From contig SUYA01000003.1 in the NCBI GenBank assembly GCA_015060695.1, positions 62,001-126,000 on the forward strand: DNA of 64,000 nucleotides, written 5' to 3'. Below the pieces are notes generated by a model. That model did no database searches and had not been told where the DNA came from. It saw nothing but the letters and a program-made list of their open reading frames with translations. Shown in pieces: positions 10,671 to 50,866 of this stretch; positions within the stretch are counted from its first letter, which is position 1, and each line of letters begins with the position of its first letter. Made by a program: the position numbers and the translations under genes. This stretch comes from Mediterranea massiliensis (GTDB lineage Bacteria > Bacteroidota > Bacteroidia > Bacteroidales > Bacteroidaceae).

Positions 10671-10791
10671 TTTCTTTTCATGGAAACTGTCGTTTCTTGC
10701 TGTGGGAACGCGCGTTTCTTTTAAAGGGAACTGTCGTTTCCTTGCAAGGAAACGACAGTTTCTTCGTAAGGAAACGGAGCGTACAATGTAC
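10671..10791. repeat. Array A: degenerate repeat with 11/22-bp period
   Basis: Eleven consecutive 11-bp phrases fill this stretch. GGAAAC or GGGAAC starts at 10682, 10704, 10726, 10748 and 10770, exactly 22 bp apart, and TTTCTT/TTTCCTT phrases fall halfway between. Example phrases are GGAAACTGTCG and TTTCTTGCTGT. Bases 10729-10760 form a perfect 32-bp palindrome made by two neighbouring units. It occupies most of the 395-bp gap between two leftward genes; no ORF is credible there. Confidence 0.85.
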
Positions 10792-10799
10792 AGGGAGTT

Positions 10800-10835
10800 G
10801 ATGAGGCTCGGCATCGCCTCATCTACACGATGCCG
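10800..10835. other. Two overlapping, mutually exclusive hairpins
   Basis: GATGAGGC (10800-10807) pairs with GCCTCATC (10816-10823), and CGGCATCG (10809-10816) pairs with CGATGCCG (10828-10835). The stems overlap, so only one can form at a time. They lie just after the sugar kinase stop codon and may act as a weak terminator, though no T run follows. Confidence 0.5.
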
Positions 10836-10840
10836 ATGTC

Positions 10841-11767
10841 TTATTTTTCTCTCAACGAGCGGGCAAATTCCGAGGAGATGTAATTGTCGTAGCTCAAGCA
10901 GGCTTGTGAAGCAAAGCAGATGCCATATTCCACTACCTTATCCCAGTCATTGCCATTCAGTAGCGGCAGATTGTCGCCATAAATCCCTTCGTGAATCAGT
11001 CCGTAAAGGATGCCGGCATTGAAATTATCGCCTGCCCCTACGGTACTTACCGTCTGCAGGCGAGGCACCGGATACTCCTTGGCGGTGGTCGAAGTGCGCA
11101 ACGACACGTCTCCGTGTGCCGTAGTGCAAATGAAAGGTGCCCCATAGAACTTTATCTTCTCGTTATAAATCTTGTCAGGCTCGGTCAGTCCGAAGATATA
11201 ACCAAAATCCTCGTTCGAACCACGTATGATACTTGCTGCCTCAAAGTTTTCTATCATGTTGGGCATCAGGTGGATGAGCTCTTGCTGATGATTGGCTCGG
11301 AAGTTAGGGTCGTAATAGACAATGGCCCCTTGCGCTTTGGCTTCTTCCAGTAAACGTCCCACGGTGGGGCGAGTCAAGGAGTTGAGCGAATAGAAAGAAC
11401 CTAATAAAATAATATCCTCTTTACCGATGGAAGGCAACTCGATGGAGGCCTGCTGATTCTGATAATCCTTATAGAAACTATACTTGGCATCGTTGTTCTC
11501 GTTCAAAAAAGCCAACGAAATATCGGTCTTCACCCCTTTGCGCCGCATCATGTAGCGAGTATCCATGCCGTTTTTCAACATAAAACCTTCGATAAGGTCA
11601 CCCACATGGTCGTCACCAATCTGACTGATAAACTCCACCTTTATGCCGGCTCGTGCCAAGCTGACCATAGCATTGAATGTCGAACCTCCCGGTACGGCCA
11701 CTGTAGGTTGGTCGTTACGGAATATCACATCCAGAATGGTTTCGCCTATACCTATTACTTTTCGCAT
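10841..11767 (-). CDS. PfkB-family sugar kinase (fructokinase-like)
   Basis: A 308-residue ribokinase-fold kinase. The N-terminal VPGGSTFNAMVSLARAG is the substrate-side signature and STVGAGDNFNAGILYG carries the catalytic Asp of the GAGD motif. It phosphorylates a sugar with ATP in the cytoplasm; fructose is a reasonable guess but 2-keto-3-deoxygluconate or another ketose is possible given the hexuronate genes 2 kb away. The start at 11767 (MRKVIGIGETILDV) matches the family N-terminus; a longer reading upstream would run into the divergent M16 peptidase gene. Confidence 0.82.
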   Translation of the reverse strand: MRKVIGIGETILDVIFRNDQPTVAVPGGSTFNAMVSLARAGIKVEFISQIGDDHVGDLIEGFMLKNGMDTRYMMRRKGVKTDISLAFLNENNDAKYSFYKDYQNQQASIELPSIGKEDIILLGSFYSLNSLTRPTVGRLLEEAKAQGAIVYYDPNFRANHQQELIHLMPNMIENFEAASIIRGSNEDFGYIFGLTEPDKIYNEKIKFYGAPFICTTAHGDVSLRTSTTAKEYPVPRLQTVSTVGAGDNFNAGILYGLIHEGIYGDNLPLLNGNDWDKVVEYGICFASQACLSYDNYISSEFARSLREK

Positions 11768-11831
11768 ATCCTCTTTCGTTACTTCCGTGCAAATATCTGC
11801 AATTTTCCAGAGATAACAATAAGTTTTGTTG

Positions 11832-11839
11832 TATTTTTG
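11832..11839 (+). promoter_or_regulatory. -7 promoter box of the M16 peptidase gene, 4 bp from the start codon
   Basis: TATTTTTG matches TAnnTTTG and only four bases separate it from the ATG at 11844. The expected transcript start then falls on or next to the A of ATG, giving a leaderless or nearly leaderless mRNA. Confidence 0.55.
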
Positions 11840-11843
11840 CGGC

Positions 11844-13091
11844 ATGAAGCAAACGAAAGAGATAGAATCAGCGTGCAGTTTCCACACCTTGCCCAATGGA
11901 TTGCGCATCATTCATCGTCCTACAAACGGGCGAGTAGCCTATTGTGGATTTGCCATCGATGCCGGTACCAGAGACGAATGGGAACATCAGCAGGGAATGG
12001 CCCATTTTGTAGAACACCTCATATTCAAAGGAACACGTCGCCGAAAAGCATGGCACATACTGAACCGTATGGAAAGCGTAGGAGGCGACCTCAATGCCTA
12101 TACCAACAAAGAAGAAACCGTCATCTATTCGGCCTTCTTGACAGAACATTTGGACAGAGCCATGGAACTATTGGCCGACATCGTCTTCCACTCAACCTTC
12201 CCTCTCCATGAAATAGAAAAAGAAGTAGAAGTTATTGTCGATGAAATACAATCTTACGAAGACAATCCTTCTGAACTGATATTCGACGATTTCGAAGATT
12301 TGATATTTCGGGGACATCCCTTGGGACGGAATATTTTAGGACAACCCCAATTGCTGAGAACTTTCGGTACGTCGGAAGCCATGCAGTGGACGCGTAGCTA
12401 CTATCAACCTCAGAATATGGTTTTCTTTGTTCAAGGAAACATCCCTTTCAAACAGATATTGAAATATGTACAAAAGTTCTTGGCAGACATTCCCTCGCTT
12501 ACCGTAGAACATCATCGTGAACAACCCTCACTCTATGAACCTCGCCGGTTGACCGTGAAACGAGAAACCCATCAAGCCCATCTGATGATGGGAGGACGAG
12601 GATACGATGCCTATAACAATAAGCGAACAGCCCTCTATCTCTTAAACAACCTCTTGGGAGGACCGGGCATGAACAGTAGGCTGAATCTATCGTTGCGCGA
12701 AAGACGAGGCCTCGTCTATCAAGTAGAATCTAACCTGACAAGCTACACCGATACCGGTACCTTCAGCATCTACTTAGGGTGCGACCATGCCGATGTAGAA
12801 AGATGCATCTCGTTGGTCCATAAGGAACTAAGGCAATTAAGAAATAACAAGATGACAACATCCGGACTAAGTGCAGCCAAAAAACAATTGATAGGGCAGA
12901 TAGCCGTAGCCTCTGACAATAACGAAAACAATGCACTCAACATGGCCAAAAGCTACTTGCACTACCATCGCTACGAAGGTTCGGAAGCCCTATTCCTACG
13001 AATTGAAGCATTAACTGCCGAAGGATTGATGGAAGTGGCCAATGAAATGTTTGCCGAAGAGAGTCTGTCGCTGCTGATTTATGATTGTTGA
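11844..13091 (+). CDS. M16-family zinc metallopeptidase
   Basis: The 415-residue protein has the inverted zinc motif HFVEH (H54, E57, H58) in the first domain, with the downstream NKEETVIYSAF and EVEVIVDEI region expected to hold the third ligand. The second domain (about 180-400, GGPGMNSRLNLSLRERRGLVY) is the typical non-catalytic M16_C half. The family resembles mitochondrial processing peptidase and pitrilysin. No signal peptide is seen, so it is probably cytoplasmic. It ends 13 bp inside the convergent queH gene. Confidence 0.88.
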   Translation: MKQTKEIESACSFHTLPNGLRIIHRPTNGRVAYCGFAIDAGTRDEWEHQQGMAHFVEHLIFKGTRRRKAWHILNRMESVGGDLNAYTNKEETVIYSAFLTEHLDRAMELLADIVFHSTFPLHEIEKEVEVIVDEIQSYEDNPSELIFDDFEDLIFRGHPLGRNILGQPQLLRTFGTSEAMQWTRSYYQPQNMVFFVQGNIPFKQILKYVQKFLADIPSLTVEHHREQPSLYEPRRLTVKRETHQAHLMMGGRGYDAYNNKRTALYLLNNLLGGPGMNSRLNLSLRERRGLVYQVESNLTSYTDTGTFSIYLGCDHADVERCISLVHKELRQLRNNKMTTSGLSAAKKQLIGQIAVASDNNENNALNMAKSYLHYHRYEGSEALFLRIEALTAEGLMEVANEMFAEESLSLLIYDC

Positions 13092-13654
13092 TTTCGGAAG
13101 CTGAACTCGCAACCGCAATATTGTTGGTTATAAAAACCAAACTCTCGTAACAACTGGTTGCGGCGTTCTTGCAATCCACCTTTGCGCCAATTCTGCTCCC
13201 AAAATAAGGTATCGGGGTAGTACGAAGCAGCCAATCGTCCCGCCTCATTGATTTGATTCAAACACTTCCAACGGCTACTGGCCAAAGTGGTGGTGAACAG
13301 AGTAAAGCCGTTTGCAGAGGCATAACGGGCAGTTTCTGTCAATCGCACGATGAAGCACTTCAGGCACCGTCCACCTCGTTCCGGCTCACATTCCAATCCT
13401 TTCATGGTTTGTAGCCAAGCCTCATGGTCATAGTCGGCATCCACAAAGTCAAGCCCTTGGCTTGTGGCAAACCGGATAGCTTCCTCTTTACGAACCAGAT
13501 ACTCTTGCAAAGGGTAGATATTGGGATTGCAAAAGTATAAAGTAGGCCGGATATCGTTAGCCAACATACATTCAATGATGGCCGATGAGCAAGGAGCGCA
13601 ACAAGCGTGCAATAATACACGCTTGTCGCCATTAGGAGTTTCTATTTTTAGCAT
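13079..13654 (-). CDS. queH: Epoxyqueuosine reductase QueH
   Basis: A 191-residue DUF208 protein. It has an N-terminal HACCAPCS (C18, C19, C22), the central ERGGRCLKCF and the C-terminal QQYCGCEFS, the cysteines that bind the Fe-S cluster and metal in QueH. It reduces epoxyqueuosine to queuosine in tRNA anticodons and stands in for cobalamin-dependent QueG. It starts 23 bp after uxuA on the same strand, so it may be on that transcript. Its tail overlaps the convergent M16 gene by 13 bp. Confidence 0.9.
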   Translation of the reverse strand: MLKIETPNGDKRVLLHACCAPCSSAIIECMLANDIRPTLYFCNPNIYPLQEYLVRKEEAIRFATSQGLDFVDADYDHEAWLQTMKGLECEPERGGRCLKCFIVRLTETARYASANGFTLFTTTLASSRWKCLNQINEAGRLAASYYPDTLFWEQNWRKGGLQERRNQLLREFGFYNQQYCGCEFSFRNQQS

Positions 13655-13677
13655 AAAAAGTCAACTGCTTATTTGTT

Positions 13678-14850
13678 TTATCCCTCCATGCATTTACTTA
13701 TTCCCATTTCCAAGCCGCGCAACTCAGCCAAGCCACGCAAGCGGCCGATGCACGAATAGCCGGGATTGGTCTTCTTGCGAAGGTCATCCACCATCTGATG
13801 CCCATGATCAGGGCGCATGGCAATAGATTGTCCGCGTCGTTGTTGCAACTCCAAGAATGCTTTCATCACTCCAAACATATCAACATCCCCTTCCAGATGG
13901 TTGGCTTCATGGAAGTTTCCTTCAGCATCACGTTGTGTGCTGCGCAAATGTACAAAATGAATGCGGTCGCCAAATTGGGTCATCATGGCCGCACAATCGT
14001 TAGCATTGCTCACTCCTAATGAGCCGGTACAAAGGCAAAGTCCGTTGCTTTCATTCGGAACGGCATCAATCAATGCCTGAAAATCTTCGGCTCGGCTCAT
14101 GATGCGTGGTAACCCTAAGATAGACATCGGGGGATCGTCGGGATGAATAACCAATTTCACACCCGCTTCGTCGGCCACCGGACAAATTTCTTGTAGGAAA
14201 TAAATCAGGTTCTTCCGCAAACGTTCGGGGGTTATCTCCTTATATCGGTCCAGTTCTTGTTGAAATTGCTCCAATGTAAAACTCTCTTCCGAACCGGGAA
14301 GACCGGCAATCATGTTGCGCACCAATACTTCCCGTTCACTTTCATTCATCTGTTCGAAACGAGCCTTTGCTTTGGTTTTTTCCTCCTCGGTATATTCCTT
14401 TTCGGCACCCGGACGCTTTAGCAAGAAAAGATCGAAAGCAATAAATGCCGCCCGTTCAAAACGTAAAGCACGGCTTCCATCCGGCAATTCATATGCCAAG
14501 TCGGTGCGTGTCCAGTCCAATACGGGCATAAAGTTGTAAGTAACCACGTTTACACCACATTTCCCCAAGTTCTTCAAACTCTCCTTATAATTGTCGATGT
14601 AGCGTTGGAAGTCACCTGTTTGGGTTTTGATGTGCTCGTGTACCGGTACACTTTCTACTACCGACCATCGCAATCCCACACTTTCAATCAACTCCTTTCG
14701 TTTCATGATTTCTTCTATCGTCCATATTTCTCCATTGGGAATATGGTGTAAGGCATTCACAATGCCGGTGGCACCGGCTTGCTTGATGTCCCATAGGCTA
14801 ACCGGATCATTCGGTCCGTACCAACGCCAAGTTTGTTCACAAAGTATCAT
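13678..14850 (-). CDS. uxuA: Mannonate dehydratase UxuA
   Basis: The 390-residue protein starts with the family sequence [15 protein letters not shown] and carries IHPDDPP and LCTGSLG in the TIM barrel. It dehydrates D-mannonate to 2-keto-3-deoxygluconate in hexuronate catabolism and uses a divalent metal. Length matches the family. It lies 13 bp after the SDR oxidoreductase that likely makes mannonate, so the two form a pathway pair. Downstream KDG kinase and aldolase are not in this window. Confidence 0.93.
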
Positions 14851-14863
14851 ACCTTAATCATAA

Positions 14864-15676
14864 TTACATGGCATAAACATTGAAACCTCCATCTACCACA
14901 GCTACCGTACCGGTTACAAAGCTGGAGGCTTCGCTAATGAGGTATTGAATGGTTCCGCAAAGTTCTTCAGCACGTCCCATGCGACCAAAAGGTGTCTGAC
15001 GAATCACGTCTTCTCCTCGTTGTGTCCAGCTTCCATCGGGGTTGGTCAGTAGGGTGCGATTCTGTTCAGTCAGGAAAAATCCGGGTGCGATGGCATTTAC
15101 CCGAATGCCTTCACCAAACTTCTTGGCTACCTCAGTTGCCATATAGGCAGTAAAGTTGCTGATGCCGGCTTTGGCTGCCGCATATCCGCAAACACGCGTC
15201 ATTGGGCGGAAAGCAGCCATGCTGCTGAAGTTTACGATAGCTCCCTTACCTTGCTCTACCATCGGCTTCAAGAAAACTTGGGTAGGAAGCACAGTGCCAA
15301 TCAAGTTTAGTTCAAGTACACGCTGAAATTCTTCAATCTTTATGTCGAAGAATGTGCCGTCGGGGGCTATTGTTGCACCGGGCATATTACCTCCGGCAGC
15401 ATTCAGTAACGCATCTACCTTACCGTATGCAGATAGGATATCGGCCAAATTCTGTTCCAGTAACTCCCGATTCATTACATCGGTTGCTAAAAACATAGCT
15501 TCGCCCCCCTTCTCTTTAATTTCGCTTACAAGGGCTTCGCCCACTTCGGCTTTGCGGCCAAGGATTACCACCTTTGCACCCTCTTCGGCCAGATGGGCTG
15601 CAATGGCTTTACCCAACACACCGGTTCCTCCGGTAATAACTACTACTTTACCTTGAATATCGAACAAGTTTTTCAT
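14864..15676 (-). CDS. SDR-family mannonate (fructuronate) oxidoreductase
   Basis: A 270-residue short-chain dehydrogenase: cofactor loop GGTGVLGKAIA (about residues 16-26), NAAGG, and a catalytic YAAAK after an upstream Ser, with a C-terminal AVVDGGF motif. Its position directly ahead of uxuA indicates that it interconverts D-fructuronate and D-mannonate, the role of UxuB. Canonical E. coli UxuB belongs to a different (long-chain) family, so this would be a non-homologous replacement and I do not give it the symbol. It starts about 35 bp after a good promoter box. Confidence 0.82.
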   Translation of the reverse strand: MKNLFDIQGKVVVITGGTGVLGKAIAAHLAEEGAKVVILGRKAEVGEALVSEIKEKGGEAMFLATDVMNRELLEQNLADILSAYGKVDALLNAAGGNMPGATIAPDGTFFDIKIEEFQRVLELNLIGTVLPTQVFLKPMVEQGKGAIVNFSSMAAFRPMTRVCGYAAAKAGISNFTAYMATEVAKKFGEGIRVNAIAPGFFLTEQNRTLLTNPDGSWTQRGEDVIRQTPFGRMGRAEELCGTIQYLISEASSFVTGTVAVVDGGFNVYAM

Positions 15677-15710
15677 GATGATAATATTTATATGGTTCTG
15701 TTTTTTCCCA

Positions 15711-15718
15711 CAAAGATA
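15711..15718 (-). promoter_or_regulatory. -7 promoter box of the hexuronate operon
   Basis: The minus strand reads TATCTTTG, 34 bp before the SDR gene start. Confidence 0.6.
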
Positions 15719-15773
15719 GGGCTAAAATCTGATTTCTGAGATGAAGAAATATGTTTTAATCATGGATTATCGG

Positions 15774-16409
15774 TCAAATATGACTTTTTTGTAAAATCAA
15801 TAAGCTCTCCGGACCCATGTTGAAAAGTAAATCTATGATGCTCAGGTTAGGCAGGAATCCCAATTTCTGTTCGAACACTTGGTAATAAGGTACTGTGTTG
15901 AATGAAGCATCTTCTTCTTGAATCTTCCTTTTAGGATGAATGCGTTCCCGCCAATCTTCTTCATCATTATTTAGCGTGGTGCGATACTCTGTCGTGCGTT
16001 TTATGCAGGGTTGCATATCTACAAGCGAACAGACCAAGTTACATAGTTCTTCGTTGAAATCGATTAAAAACGTCCATTTCTTTTCGTAAAACGGATAGAA
16101 GTCGTCTTTGTAATATTCAAAAAAAGGAGTATGGTTGTAAGCCGATTGAATGGCATTCCAATGCAAGTGTCTCCAATTGCCATGGTCAGAAATCCGAATG
16201 TCGCGCATCAAGCATTTGGGTGTATTCGGTTTCACAGTAGGTATGGTCAGTGCCAATTCGCCATCGGGGGCAGCTATGTTACATCTGTTGCGATAAGTTT
16301 GTTTCACATAGTGGTCGTATTGTTCAATCAATACTTGGTTGGCTCGTAGCATTTTGGCGTAATAGGCTATGGGAGCCAAATAAGCTGAGGAAAGATATAT
16401 TGTCTTCAT
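15774..16409 (-). CDS. WbqC-family protein
   Basis: A 211-residue protein matching the WbqC-like family by eye: the N-terminal YLSSAYLAPIAYYAKML, the middle LTIPTV with HGNWRHLHWNAIQSAY, and FYEKKWTFLIDFNEEL. Members occur in O-antigen and surface-glycan clusters, and a glycine transferase role has been suggested for some. It is the last gene of a dapB-lepB-lepB-like-wbqC run with 7-bp spacing, an arrangement typical of Bacteroides. Function here is not established. Confidence 0.75.
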   Translation of the reverse strand: MKTIYLSSAYLAPIAYYAKMLRANQVLIEQYDHYVKQTYRNRCNIAAPDGELALTIPTVKPNTPKCLMRDIRISDHGNWRHLHWNAIQSAYNHTPFFEYYKDDFYPFYEKKWTFLIDFNEELCNLVCSLVDMQPCIKRTTEYRTTLNNDEEDWRERIHPKRKIQEEDASFNTVPYYQVFEQKLGFLPNLSIIDLLFNMGPESLLILQKSHI

Positions 16410-16416
16410 GCCTGCA

Positions 16417-17316: not shown

Positions 17317-17340
17317 GGCACGGTTGTTGAATGACGGTTG

Positions 17341-20978: not shown

Positions 20979-21022
20979 TTCGCTGGTTTTCATCGTTGAT
21001 TGTCTGTTTTAACTGGTTACCA

Positions 21023-21046
21023 CAGGGCAATAGGCCCTGCTTTGTT
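21023..21046 (+). terminator. Probable terminator after the DUF2851 gene
   Basis: CAGGGC and GCCCTG form a 6-bp GC stem around AATAG, followed by CTTTGTTT, 45 bp after the stop codon. Confidence 0.5.
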
Positions 21047-21092
21047 TCGGCTAACCATACGTCTGCTTTGTGCTTCTGCAGCAGCACTTGCC

Positions 21093-21301
21093 GGTGGTTA
21101 GCTCGCTTCCGGTTCGCTTCTTGGTCGCTCCTCGCACGCTACGTGTACGCACGCTGTTCGGTCGTTCTTCGGTCGTTGTTCGCTGTTTGTTCGCTCTCTA
21201 TAGGACCGAAGAACGACCGAAGAAACACCGAAGAAACACCGAAGCGGGACCGAACCAGAAGCGAGCCAAGTACGGCCGAGAAGCGAAGCGGGTTTTCGGT
21301 G
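21093..21301. repeat. Array B: 11-bp phrases in two opposed blocks
   Basis: Nineteen 11-bp phrases without a gap. From 21104 to 21202 nine in a row start with CG and most end in TT or TA (for example CGGTCGTTCTT, CGGTCGTTGTT, CGCTGTTTGTT); the phrase at 21093-21103 is more diverged. From 21203 the phrases are the reverse-complement type (GGACCGAAGAA, CGACCGAAGAA, ACACCGAAGAA twice with one change). The blocks therefore form a long imperfect inverted repeat, including a perfect 18-bp arm pair at 21157-21174 and 21204-21221. GC content is much higher than in the flanks. Short ORFs crossing it are not credible because 11 is not a multiple of 3. Confidence 0.85.
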
Positions 21302-21345
21302 GCCCCTTGAGGGTGGCGTGGCCTTTGCTCTCCTCGCGGGACGTG

Positions 21346-21353
21346 CAAATATA
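21346..21353 (-). promoter_or_regulatory. Possible promoter reading leftward into array B
   Basis: The minus strand reads TATATTTG, a full TAnnTTTG match, 45 bp to the right of the array, with no gene in front of it. It could drive a non-coding transcript of the array. No clear -33 box at the usual spacing. Confidence 0.35.
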
Positions 21354-21363
21354 TAACACCACC

Positions 21364-21398
21364 CTTCGGTTTTAACTACTCAAAAACCGAAGTTTTTT
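21364..21398 (+). terminator. Intrinsic terminator to the right of array B
   Basis: CTTCGGTTTT pairs with AAAAACCGAAG around an 8-nt loop and ends in TTTTTT. It would stop rightward transcripts that cross array B. Confidence 0.7.
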
Positions 21399-21685
21399 CA
21401 AAATTAACAATTGATAACATCGTAACAGTCTGTTTTTCAATAAAGTAGGAAGTAAAAAAAGAATACTTTTATAACTATGTCAATATACAAGAAAAACAAT
21501 CGTATTGTTTTACAAAAACCATATACTGTTGCTTCATTTATTATCCTTTTATTCGATAAAAATAGGATTTTAACATTTATCTGATTGTTTTACACTTATA
21601 GAATTTTTAGTCTAAATGGAAAATCCTTGAAATAGTGGGTTGAAAGTGGTAGGTTGAAACAGAGAATCCTTTCTATAAATGAAGA
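21399..21685. other. AT-rich gap with no recognised feature
   Basis: I see no gene, promoter box with a matching gene, or periodic repeat here. Confidence 0.6.
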
Positions 21686-29761: not shown

Positions 29762-29836
29762 TGTAACTGTTTTTGGGGAGTATGGAAATATTTGAAAATA
29801 AAAAGCGGTATATTCCGTGAGGACTATACCGCTTTG

Positions 29837-29910
29837 CTCTTCCTCTTGGACTTGAACCAAGGACCCTCTGATTAACAGTCAGATGCTCTAACCGACTGAG
29901 CTAAGGAAGA
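29837..29910 (-). tRNA. tRNA-Asn (anticodon GTT), copy 2
   Basis: The minus strand reads TCTTCCT ... AGGAAGA with D arm GCTCAGTCGGTTAGAGC and an anticodon loop holding GTT; T arm GGTTCAAGTCC. CCA is not encoded. Identical in sequence to the copy 97 bp to the right. Confidence 0.95.
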
Positions 29911-29933
29911 ATGTTTGCATTTTCAAGGTTTTG

Positions 29934-30007
29934 CTCTTCCTCTTGGACTTGAACCAAGGACCCTCTGATTAACAGTCAGATGCTCTAACCGACTGAGCTA
30001 AGGAAGA
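29934..30007 (-). tRNA. tRNA-Asn (anticodon GTT), copy 1
   Basis: Same 74-nt tRNA as copy 2, separated from it by 23 bp, and nearer the promoter. The flanking TTTTGCTC and GAAGAAT bases also match, which suggests a recent tandem duplication. Confidence 0.95.
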
Positions 30008-30036
30008 ATATTGACTTTTTCCTTTCAAATGCGGTG

Positions 30037-30166: not shown

Positions 30167-31837
30167 ATGAAGAAGAAAATCTTATGCTTGCCCATGTTGG
30201 CATTGGCCTTGGTGGCTTTGGTAAGTATAGCTTCGAAAGAGAGCGACGACCGTAATTTCCGTATTGCCAAGAATTTGGATGTATTTAATTCGATAGTCAA
30301 GGAGTTGGAGATGCTTTATGTAGATACCATCGACCCAGACAAGAGTATCCGTAGAGGCATTGATGCCATGCTTTACGGATTGGATCCTTATACGGTGTAT
30401 TATCCGGAAGACGATGATGATGAATTGGAGATGATGTTGAAAAACTCGTATGGTGGCATTGGTTCGGTTATTACCTGGAATCCGAAGTTGAAGCGTTCGA
30501 TGATTGCCGAGCCTTACGAAGGGATGCCGGCACACGAAGTGGGGCTGAAGGCCGGTGATATTTTGCTGGAGATTGATGGCAAGGATTTGATGGGGAAGAA
30601 TAATCAGCAGGTTAGTGAGATGCTGCGCGGACAGGTGGGTACTACTTTTCGTTTGAAAGTGGAAAGGCCTGGTGCGAAGAAGCCCATCGAGTTTGAGATA
30701 TTGCGCCGTAGTATAGAACAGCCCATTATTCCTTATCATACCGTGTTGCCCGATAGTGTGGGATTCATTATGTTGACTACTTTCAGTGGTAATCCGTCGA
30801 AAGAGTTTAAGCAGGCGTTTCTGGAATTGAAGAAGCAGGGTATTCGTTCGTTGGTGGTCGATTTGCGGGGCAATGGCGGTGGCTTGTTGGACGAGGCGGT
30901 GGAGATTGCCAACTTCTTTGTACCTCGTGGTAAGACGTTGGTGACGACGCGAGGCAAGGTGAAGCAAGTTAGTAATGCTTATAAGACGTTGCGCGAACCG
31001 CTCGACTTGGACATGCCGCTGGTGTTGTTGGTAGATGGAAATACGGCATCCAGTTCGGAGATATTGGCAGGCTCTCTGCAAGACTTGGACAGGGCAGTGA
31101 TTATAGGTAGTAGGACACTTGGTAAGGGATTGGTGCAGACAACTCGGCCTCTGCCTTACGGGGGGACGATGAAGCTAACCACCTCGAAGTATTATATCCC
31201 AAGCGGACGATGCGTGCAGGCCATTGACTATAATCGGAGGGACGATGACGGTCAGGCGGGGCGCATACCCGATAGCTTGACTACTGTATTTTATACAGCG
31301 GCCGGCAGACCGGTGCGCGATGGAGGAGGGGTAAGCCCCGATGTGGAAGTGAAAGCTGAGAAGTTGCCGAACATACTTTATTATTTGGTAAATGAGAATT
31401 TGATTTTCGATTATGCCACACAGTATTGCTTGAAGTATCCTACCATAGCACCGGCGCAGGAATTTGTGGTGAGCGATGCCGACTATGAAGCGTTCAAGGA
31501 GATGGTGCGGAAAGCCGATTTCAAATATGACCAGCAGACCAGTAAAATGCTGAAGACACTGAAGGAGATTGCCGAGTTTGAGGGATATATGGAGAATGCA
31601 TCGGCCGAATTTGAGGCTTTGGAGAAGAAGTTGCAGCACGATTTGGAGCATGACCTGAATCACTTTGCCAAGGAGATAAAGAGTTTGATTGCCATCGAAT
31701 TGCAAAAGCGTTATTATTATCAACGAGGAGGAATTATCGAACAGTTGAAAGACGACCCCGATTTGAAGGAGGCACTTCGCCTGCTTGCTTCGCCCGAAGA
31801 GTACAAAAAGTTGCTGGCACCTCCTGTCAAATTGTAA
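30167..31837 (+). CDS. C-terminal processing protease, S41 family (Ctp/Tsp-like)
   Basis: A 556-residue protein with a signal-anchor (about 3-22), a PDZ domain (about 85-170, with SYGGIGSVI and GLKAGDILLEIDGKDL), the S41 core VDLRGNGGGLLDEA, nucleophile Ser295 in NTASSSEILAG, and Lys320 in GSRTLGKGLVQT. The Ser-Lys spacing of 25 equals that of CtpB. It cleaves exported proteins at the C-terminus in the periplasm. The C-terminal ~130 residues are helical. Start at 30167 gives the signal sequence. Confidence 0.93.
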   Translation: MKKKILCLPMLALALVALVSIASKESDDRNFRIAKNLDVFNSIVKELEMLYVDTIDPDKSIRRGIDAMLYGLDPYTVYYPEDDDDELEMMLKNSYGGIGSVITWNPKLKRSMIAEPYEGMPAHEVGLKAGDILLEIDGKDLMGKNNQQVSEMLRGQVGTTFRLKVERPGAKKPIEFEILRRSIEQPIIPYHTVLPDSVGFIMLTTFSGNPSKEFKQAFLELKKQGIRSLVVDLRGNGGGLLDEAVEIANFFVPRGKTLVTTRGKVKQVSNAYKTLREPLDLDMPLVLLVDGNTASSSEILAGSLQDLDRAVIIGSRTLGKGLVQTTRPLPYGGTMKLTTSKYYIPSGRCVQAIDYNRRDDDGQAGRIPDSLTTVFYTAAGRPVRDGGGVSPDVEVKAEKLPNILYYLVNENLIFDYATQYCLKYPTIAPAQEFVVSDADYEAFKEMVRKADFKYDQQTSKMLKTLKEIAEFEGYMENASAEFEALEKKLQHDLEHDLNHFAKEIKSLIAIELQKRYYYQRGGIIEQLKDDPDLKEALRLLASPEEYKKLLAPPVKL

Positions 31838-32023
31838 GCTACTGACAAAATGATATTCGAACCGCCTGAGAATTGCTTATTTCGGAGCAAGATAGGGGGC
31901 GGTGGAAAATTTTAAAGCGAAAAATGAGTTATGTTGCTTGCTATCAAGTAACTAAACCAAAATTTAACACTCCTTTAACACGCAAAACTGTGTAAATATT
32001 CGTTGATTTTATCCCTTTTTGGG

Positions 32024-32210
32024 GGAAGATACCACCTTTTGCCTCGGAAGATAGGATCTTTTGGGGCAAAAGATAGTATGTTTGCGCCGGAAAGGTGCAC
32101 TGTTTCTGCCGGGAATGTACGCAACAAACACGGTTGGCGAGCGCAGTTTGTTCGGTAAAGGTGCGCAGTTTGCTCGGTAGGAGCGCACATTTCGGACGGT
32201 AAGGCTTGGA
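32024..32210. repeat. Array C: degenerate repeat with 11/22-bp period
   Basis: Seventeen 11-bp phrases in a row: GGAAGATACCA, CCTTTTGCCTC, GGAAGATAGGA, TCTTTTGGGGC, AAAAGATAGTA, TGTTTGCGCCG and so on, to TAAAGGTGCGC, AGTTTGCTCGG, TAGGAGCGCAC. A-containing and T-containing phrases mostly alternate, so like repeats are 22 bp apart (for example AAG at 32026-32028 and 32048-32050; CGGTA at 32153-32157 and 32175-32179). It fills the centre of the 516-bp gap 31838-32353; the remainder of that gap shows no gene. Confidence 0.85.
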
Positions 32211-32353
32211 ATTTTGATTTTTTTCGAGCCTTTTTACAAAAGTGTCGGTTAGCAGAAATGGTTAAAAAGCCGCTTTTTTGTTATGAGAAAGGGTAATTCG
32301 CTTTCATTCTGACAAACGATGTTGCTGTGCCGATGGGTACACGATGCTTTAAG

Positions 32354-43570: not shown

Positions 43571-43578
43571 CAAATATA
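43571..43578 (-). promoter_or_regulatory. -7 promoter box of pepP
   Basis: The minus strand reads TATATTTG (TAnnTTTG). Confidence 0.55.
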
Positions 43579-43601
43579 GCACAAAGTCTCGAACTATTCA
43601 C

Positions 43602-43609
43602 TATTTTTG
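43602..43609 (+). promoter_or_regulatory. -7 promoter box of rpoN
   Basis: TATTTTTG, 20 bp before the rpoN ATG at 43630. Confidence 0.55.
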
Positions 43610-43629
43610 CACCATAAATGCAATAACAC

Positions 43630-45114: not shown

Positions 45115-45788
45115 TGAAGAAGATGGAAAATAGAACCGATAAAGAAAAAGTATTGCGTGTTGTTTCACATCTCGTGTCGGCAGTTTTTGCTCCTGGCATG
45201 CTTCCTTTCGTTGCTTTTCTTATTTTATTTACGTGCTCTTATTTGCGCATTATGCCCTTACAGTATCGCCTTATTGTATTGGGAATTGTATTCTGTTTTA
45301 CGTTGTTGTTACCTATGTTTAGCATGTATATATATCGCAAGTTGTATAAGCTCTCAAAGGATGAATTACGACAACGACACCATAGATTTATTCCTTTCTT
45401 GTTGGTAATTTTCTCGTACGTGGTTTGTTTGATACTTATGGTTCGTATGCATATGCCTTGGTATCTGACAGCTATTGTTTGGGATGCTATGTTGATGTTG
45501 CTATTATGTACAATAATCAATTTATGGTGGCGATTAAGTATTCATATGGCAGGAATAGGGGCGATTATTGGTGGATTGGTGACTTTTAGTATGTTGTTCG
45601 GTTATAACCCGATGTGGTGGTTGTGTTTTTTTATTTTGACAGCCGGTATGTTGGGTAGTGCCCGAATGATATTATATGGGCATAGTTTTGGAGAAGTGTT
45701 AGGAGGGTTTGCAGTAGGAATGTTTACCACTTTCTTGGTGCTTCATCCGGTAAGTAACATTTTTTTCAGTATTCTCTTTTTTATGTGA
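45114..45788 (+). CDS. PAP2-like membrane protein with a degenerate active site
   Basis: A 224-residue protein with about six membrane helices. The PAP2 motif 3 region reads ARMILYGHSFGE: Arg and His are kept with the right spacing, but the first Ser is Ala and the final Asp is Glu. Motif 2 reads SIHMAG rather than PSGH. It may be a lipid phosphatase variant or an inactive relative. Its ATG shares one base with the rpoN stop (TAATG), so it is translationally coupled. Confidence 0.7.
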   Translation: MKKMENRTDKEKVLRVVSHLVSAVFAPGMLPFVAFLILFTCSYLRIMPLQYRLIVLGIVFCFTLLLPMFSMYIYRKLYKLSKDELRQRHHRFIPFLLVIFSYVVCLILMVRMHMPWYLTAIVWDAMLMLLLCTIINLWWRLSIHMAGIGAIIGGLVTFSMLFGYNPMWWLCFFILTAGMLGSARMILYGHSFGEVLGGFAVGMFTTFLVLHPVSNIFFSILFFM

Positions 45789-45831
45789 TAAGAACAAAAC
45801 AATATTATTAACCTTTTAAAATGTAAGTATC

Positions 45832-46212
45832 ATGAACGTACCAACTAATTTGAAGTACACAAGCGAACATGAATGGATTCGCGTGGAAGGTGACATTGCT
45901 TATGTCGGCATTACTGATTATGCTCAAGAACAATTAGGCGACATTGTCTTTGTAGATATCCCTACAGTAGGGGAAACTTTGGAGGCAGCCGATGTGTTTG
46001 GTACCATTGAAGTGGTAAAAACTATTTCAGACCTTTTCTTGCCTGTAGGTGGTGAAGTGTTAGAACAAAACGATGCTTTGGTAGATCAACCAGAATTGGT
46101 AAACAACGATCCTTATGGTGAAGGATGGCTCATTAAATTGAAACCTGCTGCAGATGCCGACTATGATGCATTATTAGATGCAGAAGGATATAAAGCTGTG
46201 ATTAATCAATAA
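45832..46212 (+). CDS. gcvH: Glycine cleavage system H protein
   Basis: A 126-residue lipoyl-carrier: YTSEHEWIRVEGDIAYVGIT N-terminus and lipoylation Lys63 in GTIEVVKTISD (usual ESVKA is VVKTI here). It shuttles the aminomethyl group between P, T and L proteins. gcvP, gcvT and lpd are not adjacent. Followed at once by purE. Confidence 0.94.
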   Translation: MNVPTNLKYTSEHEWIRVEGDIAYVGITDYAQEQLGDIVFVDIPTVGETLEAADVFGTIEVVKTISDLFLPVGGEVLEQNDALVDQPELVNNDPYGEGWLIKLKPAADADYDALLDAEGYKAVINQ

Positions 46213-46221
46213 TTGACAGAT

Positions 46222-46731
46222 ATGAATCCGATTGTAAGTATCATCATGGGTAGCACTTCAGACCTTCCGGTAATGGAAAAAGCTGCTCAACTGTTGAATG
46301 ACATGCATGTACCGTTCGAAATGAATGCCCTTTCGGCTCATCGTACACCTGAGGCCGTCGAGCAGTTTGCCAAAGCTGCTCAGGCACGTGGTATTAAAGT
46401 GATTATTGCGGCTGCCGGAATGGCTGCTGCCTTGCCTGGTGTGATAGCGGCAAATACAACTTTACCTGTTATTGGTGTGCCTATTAAAGGTTCGGTATTG
46501 GATGGTGTAGATGCACTTTATTCCATTATTCAGATGCCTCCGGGTATTCCTGTGGCTACAGTAGCTATTAATGGAGCAATGAATGCAGCCATCTTGGCTA
46601 TTCAAATGCTTTCTTTGAGCGATTCATCATTGGCTGAAAGTTTAACTGCTTATAAAGCCGGATTGAAAAAAAAGATAGAAAAAGCTAACGAGGATCTGAA
46701 GGAGATAAAATACGAGTATAAAGTAGATTAA
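46222..46731 (+). CDS. purE: N5-carboxyaminoimidazole ribonucleotide mutase
   Basis: A 169-residue PurE: VSIIMGSTSDLPVMEKA, the catalytic-loop region LSAHRTPE, and AAAGMAAALPGVIAA. It moves the carboxyl group of N5-CAIR to give CAIR in purine synthesis. Start at ATG 46222, 9 bp after gcvH; ispG begins 2 bp after its stop. Confidence 0.95.
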   Translation: MNPIVSIIMGSTSDLPVMEKAAQLLNDMHVPFEMNALSAHRTPEAVEQFAKAAQARGIKVIIAAAGMAAALPGVIAANTTLPVIGVPIKGSVLDGVDALYSIIQMPPGIPVATVAINGAMNAAILAIQMLSLSDSSLAESLTAYKAGLKKKIEKANEDLKEIKYEYKVD

Positions 46732-46733
46732 GT

Positions 46734-48587
46734 ATGGATTTATTCAATTATAGTCGTCGGGTGACTTTGGAAGTGAATGTAGGAGCTACTCCGTTAGGTG
46801 GCTCCAATCCTATCCGTATTCAAAGTATGACTAATACGGTGACAATGGATACACAAGCTTGTGTGGCGCAGGCTAAGCGGATAGCCGATGCTGGTGGCGA
46901 ATATGTGCGTCTGACTACTCAGGGAGTGCGCGAAGCAGAAAACATGAAGAATATCAACATGGAGTTACGTCAAGCCGGATATTTGACACCGTTGGTGGCC
47001 GATGTGCATTTCAATCCGAATGTAGCTGATGTGGCAGCCTTATATGCTGAGAAGGTGCGCATCAATCCTGGCAACTATGTGGATGCAGCTCGTACATTTA
47101 AAGAACTGGAATATACCGATGAGGAGTATGCTGCTGAGGTAGATAAGATTCGTCGTCGCTTTATCCCTTTTCTGAACATCTGTAAAGAGAATCATACCGC
47201 TATTCGCATCGGGGTTAATCATGGTTCTTTGTCCGACCGTATCATGTCGCGCTATGGTGATACCCCGGAAGGTATGGTAGAATCTTGTATGGAGTTCTTG
47301 CGCATTTGTGTGGAAGAGCAATTTACGGATGTTGTTATTTCCATTAAAGCCTCAAATACAGTGGTAATGGTAAAGACTGTTCGTCTGTTGGCTGAACGCA
47401 TGGAACAAGAAGGAATGGCCTTTCCGTTGCATTTAGGAGTTACCGAAGCTGGTGATGGCGAAGATGGGCGTATTAAGTCGGCTTTAGGAATAGGTGCTTT
47501 GTTGGCCGATGGATTGGGAGATACAATTCGGGTGTCGTTGAGTGAACGTCCGGAAGCAGAGATACCGGTGGCACGCCAATTGGTCGATTATATCAATACT
47601 CGTGTGGGGCATCCTTATATTCCCGGAGCCGTAGCTTCGGGCTTTGACTATTTGCGACCGGAGCGTCGTTCTACCAAGGCCGTGCATAATATTGGTGGAG
47701 GACAACTTCCCGTTGTGATAGCAGCTCGTTTGGAAAATGATGCTTCTATTTGGGATTCTCAATTTCGTCCGGATTATCTGTATGTAGGCCGCTCTTTACC
47801 TACTGAACTTACCGATGGAATGGAATATATAGTAGATGCCGATTGTTGGACAGGGCGAGAAGCTACTTGGCCGGTATTCAAGTCAGACCAACTTCCTTTT
47901 ATGGGTGGGTGTGCTGCACCAATGAAATTTTTGTTCATAACCTATTTGGGGTTGAATGATGAAGTGTTGGCCTGTTTGCGCTTTCATCCGGAAGTAGTAC
48001 TGATAGTGCAAAGCAATCATCCGAACCGTTTGGGCGAGCAACGAGCTTTGGTTCATCAATTGATGAATGAAGGATTGTCAAACCCGGTAGTCTTCTTCCA
48101 GCATTATAGTGAAGAGCGGGATGAGGCTTTACAAATTAAGGCGGCTGCCGATATGGGACCACTTATTTTCGATGGGTTGACCGATGGCTTGTTTATATTT
48201 AATCAGTTTCATTCGGATGCCTCTCCCACCCGTGACGAACAAACGGCTTTCGGTATTCTTCAAGCCGGGCGAGTACGCACGGTGAAAACCGAGTATATCT
48301 CTTGTCCGGGATGTGGTCGTACTTTGTACAATCTGGAAGAAACTATTGCTCGCATCAAGGCTGCCACAAGTCATCTGAAGGGCTTGAAGATAGGTATTAT
48401 GGGCTGTATTGTGAATGGTCCTGGCGAGATGGCTGATGCAGATTATGGATATGTAGGTGCCGGACGAGGTAAGATAAGTTTGTATAAACAGAAGGAATGT
48501 ATAGAAAAGAATATTCCTGAAGCCGAGGCGGTAGAGAAACTTATTGAGTTGATAAAAGCTAATGGCGATTGGCAAGAGCGGGTATAA
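46734..48587 (+). CDS. ispG: 4-hydroxy-3-methylbut-2-enyl diphosphate synthase, long form
   Basis: A 617-residue IspG, far longer than the E. coli enzyme (372), as in plants and Chlamydia, with an inserted middle domain (about 250-500). N-terminal TIM barrel (PIRIQSMTNTVT; PLVADVHFNPNVA; IRIGVNHGS) and the C-terminal Fe-S part with CPGCGRT and MGCIVNGPGE. It makes HMBPP in the non-mevalonate isoprenoid pathway. Cotranscribed with gcvH and purE. Confidence 0.95.
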   Translation: MDLFNYSRRVTLEVNVGATPLGGSNPIRIQSMTNTVTMDTQACVAQAKRIADAGGEYVRLTTQGVREAENMKNINMELRQAGYLTPLVADVHFNPNVADVAALYAEKVRINPGNYVDAARTFKELEYTDEEYAAEVDKIRRRFIPFLNICKENHTAIRIGVNHGSLSDRIMSRYGDTPEGMVESCMEFLRICVEEQFTDVVISIKASNTVVMVKTVRLLAERMEQEGMAFPLHLGVTEAGDGEDGRIKSALGIGALLADGLGDTIRVSLSERPEAEIPVARQLVDYINTRVGHPYIPGAVASGFDYLRPERRSTKAVHNIGGGQLPVVIAARLENDASIWDSQFRPDYLYVGRSLPTELTDGMEYIVDADCWTGREATWPVFKSDQLPFMGGCAAPMKFLFITYLGLNDEVLACLRFHPEVVLIVQSNHPNRLGEQRALVHQLMNEGLSNPVVFFQHYSEERDEALQIKAAADMGPLIFDGLTDGLFIFNQFHSDASPTRDEQTAFGILQAGRVRTVKTEYISCPGCGRTLYNLEETIARIKAATSHLKGLKIGIMGCIVNGPGEMADADYGYVGAGRGKISLYKQKECIEKNIPEAEAVEKLIELIKANGDWQERV

Positions 48588-48597
48588 GCCGCTCTTG
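48573..48597. terminator. Short terminator at the end of ispG
   Basis: CAAGAGCGG pairs with CCGCTCTTG around GTATAAG; the ispG stop codon is in the loop and CTTT follows. Confidence 0.6.
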
Positions 48598-48615
48598 CTT
48601 TGATGATTATATGGA

Positions 48616-50451
48616 TTAACTGAGCGATTGCATATCGTTCAGTTTTTTGTAATATCCTTCTTTGGACAATAACTCTTCGTGGCGTCCACGCTCTACGATT
48701 TCTCCTTCATAAAGCACACAGATTTCATCGGCATGTTTTATGGTACTTAGACGGTGGGCTATGGCAATGGTAGTGCGTGTTTTCATCAACCGTTCCAACG
48801 CTTCTTGCACTAGTCGTTCACTTTCTGTATCGAGTGCAGAAGTTGCTTCGTCGAGAATAAGGATGGGCGGATTCTTTAAGATGGCGCGTGCTATACTGAT
48901 GCGTTGCCGTTGTCCACCGCTTAGTTTGCCTCCACGGTCGCCGATGTTGGTGTCATATCCGTGTTCGGTTTCCATGATGAAGTCGTGCGCATTAGCTATC
49001 TTGGCCGCTTCCATTACCTGTTCCAACGTGGCATTTTCCACACCGAAAGCAATGTTGTTAAAGAAAGAGTCGTTGAAGAGTATGGCTTCTTGATTGACGT
49101 TACCGATGAGGGAACGGAGGTCGTGAATACGTAGCTCTTTGATGTCAATACCGTCTATGCAGATGGAACCTTTTTGTACATCGTGGTAGCGGGGCAATAA
49201 ATCAACTAAGGTAGATTTTCCACTGCCCGATTGTCCTACCAAAGCTATGGTACTTCCTCGACGCACTTTTAAGTTGACATTCTTTAGTACTTGGCGTTGA
49301 CCGTCGTAACTGAATGTGATGTTTCGGAATTCTATCTCTTCTTTCAAAGCTGGTAATGGCTTGGGGTTGTTCGTTTCTTTGATAGGATTTTCGGCTAACA
49401 GTATTTTATCGATACGTTCCATGGAGGCCAATCCTTTGGGTATGTTATAGCTAGCTTTTGAGAATTCTTTCAGTGGGTTGAGAACGCTGTATAAGATGAC
49501 CATATAATAGATGAAGGTGGAGGCGTCGATAGTAGAATTGTTGCTGAGGATGAGTGAACCACCGAACCAAAGCACGATGACAATCATCAGTGTACCTAGA
49601 AATTCGCTCATGGGGTGAGCCAATGCTTGGCGAAAAGCTACACGATTGGTTGCATTTCTAAATTCGTTACTACATTCGCTGAAGCGCCCTATCATTTTAT
49701 CTTCGGCTACAAATGCCTTAATGATGCGTAAACCTCCTAAAGTTTCTTCTAATTGTGCCATGGTGTCGCTCCATTTGCTTTGTGCTTCCAGTGACTTGCG
49801 TTTCAGTTTCCGGCCAATCTTTCCCATCACCCATCCCATACCAGGTACTACCAATAAAGTAAACAGTGTCAGTTGCCAACTTACCACAATCAACGTAGTG
49901 AAGTATATAATGATAAGGATGGGGTTTTTAATAAGCATATCCAGGGTGCTGGTTACGGAGGTTTCCACTTCGGTAACATCACCGCTCATGCGGGCAATGA
50001 TGTCGCCTTTGCGCTCTTCGCTAAAGAAGCCCAACGGCAGGCGCATGACTTTGGAATAGACCATAATGCGGATGTCGCGTACTACCCCGGTGCGCAAAGG
50101 TATCATAACAGCCGATGAGGCATAGTAACACCCCGTCTTTAGTAGCGTCATGAAAGCCAGAAACAGACCGATAAAGAGCAGGGCCAATGAGGCTCCGTGG
50201 CTGTCTATCAGCAGCGAGACGTAGTAGTTTAGGTTGTTCATCAGCAAATCCTTGATAGCCAAATCGCTTTCCCAAGGGATGAACTCATAACTCCTCTGGT
50301 CAATCTTGAAAAGTATATTCAAGATGGGGATAAGCAGGGCAAACGAGAATATATTGAATATGGCCGAAAGCAGATTCAGTAATACGGCCCAGCCCAAAAA
50401 ACGTTTATAAGGCGATACGAAGCGTCGCAGCAATTGAATAAAATCTTTCAT
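48616..50451 (-). CDS. ABC exporter, fused membrane and ATPase domains (MsbA-like)
   Basis: A 611-residue half-transporter: six membrane helices in residues 1-320, then an ATPase with Walker A GQSGSGKSTLVD, signature LSGGQRQRISIARAIL, and Walker B ILILDEATSALD. Such dimers flip lipids or export hydrophobic compounds. MsbA is plausible but no lipid A gene is adjacent. Single gene with a clear promoter. Confidence 0.9.
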   Translation of the reverse strand: MKDFIQLLRRFVSPYKRFLGWAVLLNLLSAIFNIFSFALLIPILNILFKIDQRSYEFIPWESDLAIKDLLMNNLNYYVSLLIDSHGASLALLFIGLFLAFMTLLKTGCYYASSAVMIPLRTGVVRDIRIMVYSKVMRLPLGFFSEERKGDIIARMSGDVTEVETSVTSTLDMLIKNPILIIIYFTTLIVVSWQLTLFTLLVVPGMGWVMGKIGRKLKRKSLEAQSKWSDTMAQLEETLGGLRIIKAFVAEDKMIGRFSECSNEFRNATNRVAFRQALAHPMSEFLGTLMIVIVLWFGGSLILSNNSTIDASTFIYYMVILYSVLNPLKEFSKASYNIPKGLASMERIDKILLAENPIKETNNPKPLPALKEEIEFRNITFSYDGQRQVLKNVNLKVRRGSTIALVGQSGSGKSTLVDLLPRYHDVQKGSICIDGIDIKELRIHDLRSLIGNVNQEAILFNDSFFNNIAFGVENATLEQVMEAAKIANAHDFIMETEHGYDTNIGDRGGKLSGGQRQRISIARAILKNPPILILDEATSALDTESERLVQEALERLMKTRTTIAIAHRLSTIKHADEICVLYEGEIVERGRHEELLSKEGYYKKLNDMQSLS

Positions 50452-50467
50452 AACTAGTTGTTTGCGG

Positions 50468-50475
50468 CAAAGATA
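50468..50475 (-). promoter_or_regulatory. -7 promoter box of the ABC exporter gene
   Basis: The minus strand reads TATCTTTG, 16 bp before the ATG. Confidence 0.6.
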
Positions 50476-50778
50476 ATTCTTTTCTGTGATTTGTTGGGTA
50501 TTTGTGCTTGCTTATTTCCTGAAAGATATTTTTATCAATCAATCTTGGAGCATGGATTAATAGCTATTTTAAACTGTTTTTTCATGAAAAAGTCATAGTG
50601 AGAACTGTTATTCAATATATTTTAAAATACAATAAGGCGTAGAATTACTTTTTGTCATTATTTTCCTTCTTGCTATTTTTTTCTCACTTGTTATTATCAT
50701 AAGCAATTTGTTGTTGAATATCAAATGCTTATTTGATTTTATTTTTTTGTAATTGGTAAACTTTCCATATAACGTCTC
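50476..50778. other. AT-rich gap with no recognised gene
   Basis: No ORF, tRNA or clear hairpin terminator was recognised in this stretch, which runs up to array D. Confidence 0.6.
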
Positions 50779-50866
50779 AAAAAGATACTACCTTTTAAGC
50801 GAAAAGATTGTATCTTTTTATTAAGAAGTTGCTATCTTTTTAGGCAAAACATAGTAACTTCTTTAA
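50779..50866. repeat. Array D: degenerate repeat with 11/22-bp period
   Basis: Eight 11-bp phrases: AAAAAGATACT, ACCTTTTAAGC, GAAAAGATTGT, ATCTTTTTATT, AAGAAGTTGCT, ATCTTTTTAGG, CAAAACATAGT, AACTTCTTTAA. A-rich and T-rich phrases alternate strictly, so each composite unit is 22 bp and nearly palindromic (AAAGAT...ATCTTT). It lies just past the 3' end of the histidine phosphatase gene. Confidence 0.85.

Follow-up and report, generated by a model that had tools for sequence, protein, structure and literature searches.

Tandem arrays of fixed 22-bp period and variable sequence in Bacteroides chromosomes, and their linkage to DUF6078 genes

The window analysed here is a 64,000-nucleotide stretch of Mediterranea massiliensis DNA (assembly GCA_015060695.1, contig SUYA01000003.1, positions 62,001 to 126,000 of the forward strand). 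It harbors four tandem arrays, A to D, with a period of 11 or 22 base pairs (bp). We describe these arrays, their relatives in other genomes, and the linkage of such arrays to a gene encoding a small protein of family DUF6078. A sequence-only reading of the window had proposed four intergenic arrays that share this period but not a sequence, and all four are present at the coordinates it gave. The self-match at lag 22 is 0.63 in array A, 0.52 in array B and 0.56 in array C, where 0.26 is expected from composition in each case, and 0.62 in array D against an expected 0.31. The exact period is 22 bp in A, C and D and 11 bp in B, for which the self-match at lag 11 is 0.60. The phrase register confirmed that A-rich and T-rich phrases alternate at 11 bp in A, C and D. 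Array B is a run of 11-bp phrases in the same orientation, followed by about as many inverted ones.

Array A (10650..10803) has about five 22-bp units of the form RGAAAC-n4-GTTTCY-n6, with phrases in register at exact 11- and 22-bp steps from 10671 to 10780. It is flanked by two co-directional genes, one thioredoxin-like (8547-10505) and the other pfkB (10841-11911). Array B (21093..21301) is long and hairpin-capable, and is enclosed in a B element (20985..21516) defined by the outer homology of 13 aligned B copies, the ends being approximate and read by eye from the alignment. At 21340-21362 this element carries GTGCAAATATATAACACC, which is highly conserved among the B copies; the minus strand here reads TATATTTG, presumably a promoter-like -7 box, directed into the inverted 11-bp array. 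Array C (32024..32210) has a 22-bp period in which the half-sites GGAAGATA / TCTTTT grade into GGTGCGC / AGTTTGTTCGG. It is part of a C element on the plus strand (31825..32256; 8 copies, 86-100% identity) whose left end overlaps the last codons of an S41 peptidase gene ending at 31837; the element ends are approximate, and the right edge varies. Array D (50779..50866) consists of four 22-bp units, AAAAGATA..TATCTTTT, and also weakly matches the first units of C. The arrays and the B element are not assigned to a strand.

Regions of strong self-match were counted at each lag from 8 to 60 in an unselected sample of 40 stretches of 20 kb (800 kb), taken at fixed coordinates from 17 other Bacteroides genomes, mostly single-contig ones. 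The sample contains 23 intergenic regions at lag 22 (25 in all) and 15 regions at lag 44, as compared with an average of 1.33 intergenic regions at lags not divisible by 11, where the maximum is 7 at lag 23. Nearly every array in this sample has its own theme. For the window's own genome, 294 kb was sampled, comprising the window, C3:1-200000 (chosen for its A hits) and two further stretches; here there are 11 intergenic lag-22 regions (13 in all), the mean at lags not divisible by 11 being 0.23. After a single order-1 shuffle, neither of the two sets contained any such region. No lag-22 excess was found in 536 kb from other families of the order, with 4 intergenic regions against a mean of 2.94. 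The original observation was right, and understated.

Of the other genomes examined for theme A itself, 10 of 36 within the genus have the pattern, and none of 24 from other families of the order. Scanning a genome collection for the exact pattern of two A units returned 65 stretches, nearly all from Bacteroides, Parabacteroides and relatives, with single matches labelled Porphyromonas, Ignavibacteriae and Blautia. The 22-mers had also been described as loose palindromes; dyad symmetry is indeed common but not universal. It exceeds 95% of the array's own column permutations in 16 of the 25 unselected arrays, and lies above column-permuted controls in 16 of 21 own-genome arrays and at 64 of the 65 named A loci. 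In 3 of the 40 unselected stretches, paired arrays of differing themes share one gap (L322:1813-2097, L308:14337-14640 and L292:13816-14034); the first array of the L322 pair is purine-rich and lacks dyad symmetry.

A DNA search of the whole assembly of the window's genome (2.53 Mb, 28 contigs, 86.6% complete) gave approximately 12 A loci, one of them partial, 18 B loci, 8 C loci and 3 D loci. A fifth theme, E (ACTACCTATAGGTAGT-n6), derived from another stretch, has 30 loci. The matches are approximately 72-100% identical. The claim of a shared period with unshared sequence stands for the genus, with its many themes. The four arrays of the window are nevertheless not all independent: A, B and C each belong to a dispersed family, and D has relatives at two further loci. 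The fetched copies sit in gaps among longer reading frames, although some of the B, C and A copies are overlapped by small frames (70-159 codons), and at 6 of the 65 named A loci the array lies within a frame of at least 90 codons.

The gene pairs flanking own-genome arrays (n=61) are codirectional in 37 cases (18 and 19 by sense), convergent in 15 and divergent in 9; the corresponding numbers for own-genome comparison gaps of at least 150 bp are 31, 7 and 8. For 22 unselected arrays of other genomes the numbers are 17, 4 and 1, as compared with 99, 17 and 42, and arrays in this sample may avoid divergent gaps. The partial A copy at C8:72999 was excluded from the context counts, and L116, an E copy at a contig start, from the comparison of E cores, the reading-frame overlaps and the divergence, orientation and terminal-repeat analyses. 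We did not find a common function among neighbors of the own-genome arrays: in the 90 of 122 neighbors scanned, 141 Pfam families were found with at most 4 members each (a second neighbor scan took 42 of 44 distinct proteins). A regulon was rejected because the neighbors share no function. In the available extract of PMC3878776, the sites of Bacteroides hybrid two-component system (HTCS) regulators are direct repeats averaging 21 bp apart. Like the arrays, they place a pair of sites on the same side of the helix at a distance of about two turns, but they are described there as single site pairs at glycan operons, whereas the array neighbors have no function in common.

Theme A was analysed for its geometry. 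Outward from the matched core, 162 of 213 steps to the next A-rich half-site measure exactly 22 bp, as do 146 of 229 steps to the next T-rich one. The period had been described as free of slips; this holds for the exact steps of array A in the window, but not for the theme as a whole, as the spacing is 21 in 4 and 23 in 12 of the 213 steps. In 144 units not forced by the pattern, the half-sites hold 0.7-1.7 bits and the spacers 0.01-0.41 bits. Together with the genus-wide lag 22 and the recurrence of half-sites at 22 bp, these free spacers fit the proposal of a fixed geometry with free sequence. Watson-Crick pairs number 625 within units, where 624.1 are expected under independence, and 335 between units, where 337.7 are expected. 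One of six position pairs (2-15) covaries in both tests; it should be noted that the unit filter (8 of 12 half-site letters) slightly disfavors double changes. Because the spacers are free, most steps are exactly 22 bp and there is no overall covariation, theme A looks protein-read and not hairpin-selected. On balance, these counts suggest that the half-sites are read separately, without hairpin pairing.

The alternative is selection on hairpins of RNA or single-stranded DNA, acting as terminators, transcript stabilisers or long duplexes, which we regard as improbable. The length of 11 bp is one turn of A-form RNA. The arrays fold strongly: the reverse strand of the B element, which carries the TATATTTG box, reaches -146 kcal/mol over 347 nucleotides, and for C and E one strand gives the more stable fold. 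In some individual arrays the mismatches are skewed between G-T and A-C; across 23 unselected arrays, the majority wobble fraction per array has a value of 0.70, where 0.61 would be expected. However, units of the unselected arrays repeat the same mismatch, so these counts are not independent, and the 63 named A arrays have a fraction of 0.629, with 0.606 expected. A test of the RNA strand gave a mixed result. The covarying pair 2-15 would agree with hairpins, whereas the overall counts of theme A pairs do not, nor does the even split of codirectional own-genome arrays between the two senses. Furthermore, the A half-site letters are found again in different genera, and pairing by itself would not demand this.

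At five of the 65 named A loci, in Bacteroides, Parabacteroides and a Prevotellaceae assembly, the array lies directly beside a gene for a small protein, DUF6078 (PF19555; E 1e-32 to 1e-49). Three larger neighbor groups recur at these loci as well, namely ABC-F ATPases, hybrid sensors and FtsX permeases. In the window's genome a DUF6078 gene lies on C3, where it adjoins an A array. As the first DUF6078 loci had been fetched for their arrays, we ran a reverse test in which DUF6078 was sought by tblastn in plasmid and phage collections without reference to arrays. At each of the ten loci obtained, the 3' side of the gene carries a lag-22 array, with scores of 37-51 of 66 and at distances ranging from overlap with the gene end to 69 bp, except for 294 bp at the partial gene L359; on the 5' side there are arrays at 0 of 9. 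Among unselected Bacteroides genes, 17 of 539 3' windows (3.2%) and 14 of 511 5' windows reach the threshold, and among the other genes of the same loci 1 of 30 and 0 of 24, respectively. Two of the ten resemble loci already known (L357 is like L141, and L360 like L030), and the array of L352 lies inside the annotated pbpC reading frame. Counting near-duplicates, the 3.1 Mb of fetched loci contains 20 distinct DUF6078 loci, 19 of them with an array at most 300 bp away; in three of these 19 (L169, L174 and L190) the array is 5' of the gene.

The themes linked to the gene comprise GTGCCA..TGGCAC and the related TTTGCCA..TGGCAAA, AGTACT..AGTACT, TGACC..GGTCA, several GAAAC..GTTTC forms, and a Treponema theme with GTTTCA. 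Protein identity correlates with theme similarity (Mantel test, r=0.54, p=0.0012, for 18 of the 20 loci, L357 and L359 being excluded). For the 11 loci not fetched for A arrays the values are r=0.42 and p=0.0062, one of them, L011, being on a contig chosen partly for A hits. In P. distasonis, a DUF6078-linked array recurs at 25 places in 11 records, all Parabacteroides and each listed row P. distasonis; the gene-linked theme is thus dispersed in that species. A repeat-reading protein had been among the explanations offered from sequence, and it fits, as DUF6078 adjoins arrays and the theme tracks the protein, giving it a named candidate. The Treponema saccharophilum plasmid pTS1 (L354/L361) carries DUF6078 with a 22-bp array, and a second DUF6078 match is present in the record; its occurrence on a spirochaete plasmid suggests transfer between phyla. 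In viral contigs, 79 pattern matches to DUF6078 yielded no confirmed relative, and further protein searches with other queries gave no new record.

DUF6078 is approximately 145 amino acids long. An alignment of 48 members has near-invariant cysteines at positions 17, 22, 28 and 59 (numbering of the L141 protein) and a conserved GRKxYY region. The AlphaFold model has a mean predicted local distance difference test score (pLDDT) of 91.8 and a predicted template modelling score (pTM) of 0.77. No solved structure convincingly matches this model in fold searches, although a family not listed there may still match. Our guess is that the cysteines hold zinc and that the protein binds DNA.

We suggest that the arrays are tandem binding platforms with a spacing set by small reader proteins, and that DUF6078 is probably the reader of theme A and of at least three unrelated themes. 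In brief, each array would be a series of 22-bp dyads with a half-site every 11 bp, like half-sites being two helical turns apart, and the small proteins reading it would set the fixed spacing. DUF6078 paralogs would read theme A and at least three unrelated themes, and as the protein diverged the theme would change with the 22-bp geometry kept constant. By inference, DUF6078 would bind the array in dimeric or oligomeric form, and this binding would be the reason why arrays persist and spread. Arrays change by whole units, and some appear to lie in elements bounded by terminal inverted repeats (TIRs). The linkage may thereby explain why the spacing is fixed and the sequence variable. The most likely use would be a gene-plus-repeat unit, like those of repetitive extragenic palindromic (REP) sequences, whose protein holds or disseminates its own array; that DUF6078 does disseminate its array is an idea we put forward tentatively.

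Several observations weigh against this proposal. The bits of the half-sites are inflated, as counted units had to match 8 of 12 half-site letters. Most DUF6078 loci outside the ten of the reverse test had been fetched for A arrays, and of the three DUF6078 genes that the contiguous and fixed-coordinate samples contain, two adjoin an array (L306 at 26 bp and L011 at 0 bp) and the third, L289, is 2.3 kb from the nearest one. Once related forms are pooled, the themes linked to the gene make up at least four unrelated groups. No DUF6078 adjoins the examined own-genome copies of B, C, D and E (18, 8, 3 and 30 loci), a check that covered the 3.1 Mb of fetched loci, overlaps included, most of the remaining genome being unread. 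For E there is a lead in HU-HIG (PF18291). In 4 of 14 other genomes with E matches the E array lies at the 3' end of an HU-HIG gene, and in the window's genome one lies 5' of such a gene (L367:568-1383, L261, L263, L266 and L276, from four Bacteroides genomes and the own genome). These loci had been collected on account of their E arrays, and two or more of them have the other neighbor in common and may be orthologous; HU-HIG as the reader of theme E is only a lead.

The proximity of E arrays to HU-HIG genes in five genomes, and the A-rich and T-rich phrases phased at 11 bp in A, C and D, would also be expected if phased A/T tracts gave intrinsic curvature or a general platform for nucleoid proteins, read by shape and not by sequence. 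Curved DNA had been proposed from sequence as a general cause, which is unlikely because the themes range from A/T-rich to CACGGCCGTGG, with some of them G/C-rich at the dyads. Moreover, the sequence is kept from unit to unit within an array, which shape alone would not need, and the themes track the DUF6078 sequence. We consider reading by shape very improbable.

A close known counterpart of a DUF6078 reader is the REPtron, in which a gene for TnpA-REP, also named RAYT (REP-associated tyrosine transposase), is flanked by its REP palindromes, with further copies elsewhere (PMC6006769, PMC3733652, available extracts). As in those descriptions, a coding gene is accompanied by its cognate repeat, dispersed intergenic copies are present (approximately 12 A loci in the window's genome, one at the gene, and the 25 places in P. 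distasonis), and repeat and protein diverge together. The differences are that the gene here is DUF6078 and not HuH/Y1, and that the repeats are tandem arrays of 22-bp dyads. Theme A is without the GT[AG]G foot at a single hairpin by which REPs are recognised, neither GTAG nor GTGG being present in its half-sites; the E palindrome contains GTAG, within tandem 22-bp units. The extract of PMC6006769 also describes a subclass 2.6, mostly from Bacteroidetes, with 'atypical' structures and REPs that lack the GT[AG]G foot. The array system appears to work like a REPtron but falls outside that family as defined, and we propose DUF6078 as a REPtron-like reader without an HuH transposase. A RAYT was rejected as mobiliser: the only Y1_Tnp gene detected in the 86.6% complete assembly (L257, C4:26415-26585) has no 22-bp array within 1.5 kb. 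This gene is a RAYT-like frame of 199 amino acids with the GC-rich hairpin GGGGCACCCCTTGCGGGTGCCC inside the frame, which resembles the hairpin reported for TnpA-REP subclass 2.4 in the extract.

Orthologous gaps show how arrays change. In one gap, compared among three species, there are two neighboring arrays, of which one has lost and the other gained exactly one 22-bp unit, with no other indel within the arrays at 18-19% divergence; substitutions in the arrays exceed those in the flanks (0.11-0.19 versus 0.08-0.11). Unit gain and loss between orthologous gaps had been named as a check on the idea, and is thus seen. In a second gap the unit number is constant, with one 1-bp gap at the array edge, and the array is 0.02-0.04 diverged as compared with 0.04-0.27 for the flanks, one species' flank including a replaced segment. 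An E array kept its unit number in three other species. Recent whole-unit amplification is visible in P. goldsteinii (L189), and a B-theme array on C11 of the window's genome, with seven near-identical units, appears to be a recent amplification. Such events are what neutral tandem slippage, leaving functionless minisatellites, would produce. We find this reading scarcely credible for the arrays as a class: among the lags only 22 bp and its double stand out, the spacers are free between recurring half-sites, the arrays are linked to one gene family, and the E array has low, gap-free divergence compared with its own leader and tail. Local homogenisation, also suggested from sequence, finds agreement in the in-place gain and loss of whole units and in the one B-theme amplification, but A, B, C and E occur as dispersed copies. 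The earlier interpretation as a whole is partly supported: the data fit it as to geometry and a repeat-reading protein, make curvature unlikely as the general cause, and agree only in part with homogenisation.

Theme E sits in an element of 425-431 bp. In 6 of 23 copies both ends of this element carry TTTAAGTTTnGCAA terminal repeats, with 3 mismatches at one end in two of the six. For a 7-bp target duplication, one of seven lengths tried, these six copies have a match of 0.67 with their own flanks and 0.44 with swapped flanks. The 88-bp E array has 0.039 substitutions per site and no gaps (8 copies), as compared with 0.229 and 0.250 substitutions per site and 4.5 and 5.7 gaps per pair in the leader and tail (11 copies each). 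For the full set of 23 E cores the values are 0.078 substitutions per site and 0.35 gaps per pair; they rise to 0.150 and 1.07 in six cores that have neither leader nor tail. The low divergence of the array may result from constraint in place or from selection among mobile master copies. Comparison of copies established no terminal repeats for the B and C elements. A comparison of the B locus with its nearest relatives, approximately 72-79% identical, gave no clean empty site, the other flanking gene not being found there.

These elements raise the possibility that the arrays are minisatellite cargo of ordinary miniature inverted-repeat transposable elements (MITEs), moved by an insertion sequence transposase through their TIRs, the 22-bp period being incidental. 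The terminal repeats and possible 7-bp target duplications of E would agree with this, as would a B. xylanisolvens array with CACGGCCGTGG dyads between repeated TGACAATA ends (L312:9650-10250), the core of which recurs at many loci of related species. The BrickBuilt MITE of P. gingivalis, with 19 copies in one strain, is a precedent: in the extract of PMC4596501 it is intergenic and dispersed, with short tandem units between leader and tail and terminal repeats. It is described there as having a single 23-nucleotide unit sequence, found in P. gingivalis and P. gulae, and IS5-like GAGACC ends, whereas the arrays here have 22 bp, many themes across a genus, a linked gene, and, in E, TTTAAGTTTnGCAA ends. 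We consider the cargo explanation unlikely, as unrelated arrays share exactly 22 bp, the E array is approximately six times less diverged than the rest of its element, E cores also exist where neither leader nor tail can be recognised, no comparable body with TIRs was seen to surround A arrays, and the DUF6078 linkage is not predicted.

Other tandem sites spaced by whole helical turns are the 22-bp iterons of R6K and the 11-bp repeats of R1 parC. Iterons and partition sites occur once per replicon, at the origin or the partition locus and next to a Rep or Par gene, whereas the arrays here occupy tens of chromosomal loci. An array of clustered regularly interspaced short palindromic repeats (CRISPR) has repeats of 24-48 bp and unrelated spacers of similar length; this candidate was rejected, as the units abut at 22 bp with variable parts of just 4 and 6 bp (no search for cas genes was made). 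We did not find a description of 22-bp arrays in Bacteroides in the open-access papers searched, where DUF6078 was not looked up.

If DUF6078 reads the arrays as proposed, this would give a role to PF19555, a protein family of unknown function, and explain a repeat class common in Bacteroides chromosomes, with 25 arrays in 800 kb of unselected sequence. Natural protein-target pairs with differing targets at one spacing would also be a clean system for studying the evolution of DNA-binding specificity. More speculatively, and with considerable doubt, DUF6078 could be the founder of a new gene-plus-repeat system. Its cysteine-bearing readers would switch targets on a 22-bp lattice, spread their arrays, and form two-turn filaments along them by which DNA is insulated, organised or silenced. 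HU-HIG and other proteins would use the same lattice, with 22 bp as a common currency of Bacteroides chromosome architecture.

A search of the window against Rfam at gathering scores returned three tRNAs only, and no array matches a curated covariance model. Two tandem tRNA-Asn genes at 29833-30009 form a 97-bp direct duplication of 1.8 copies with a 100% match.

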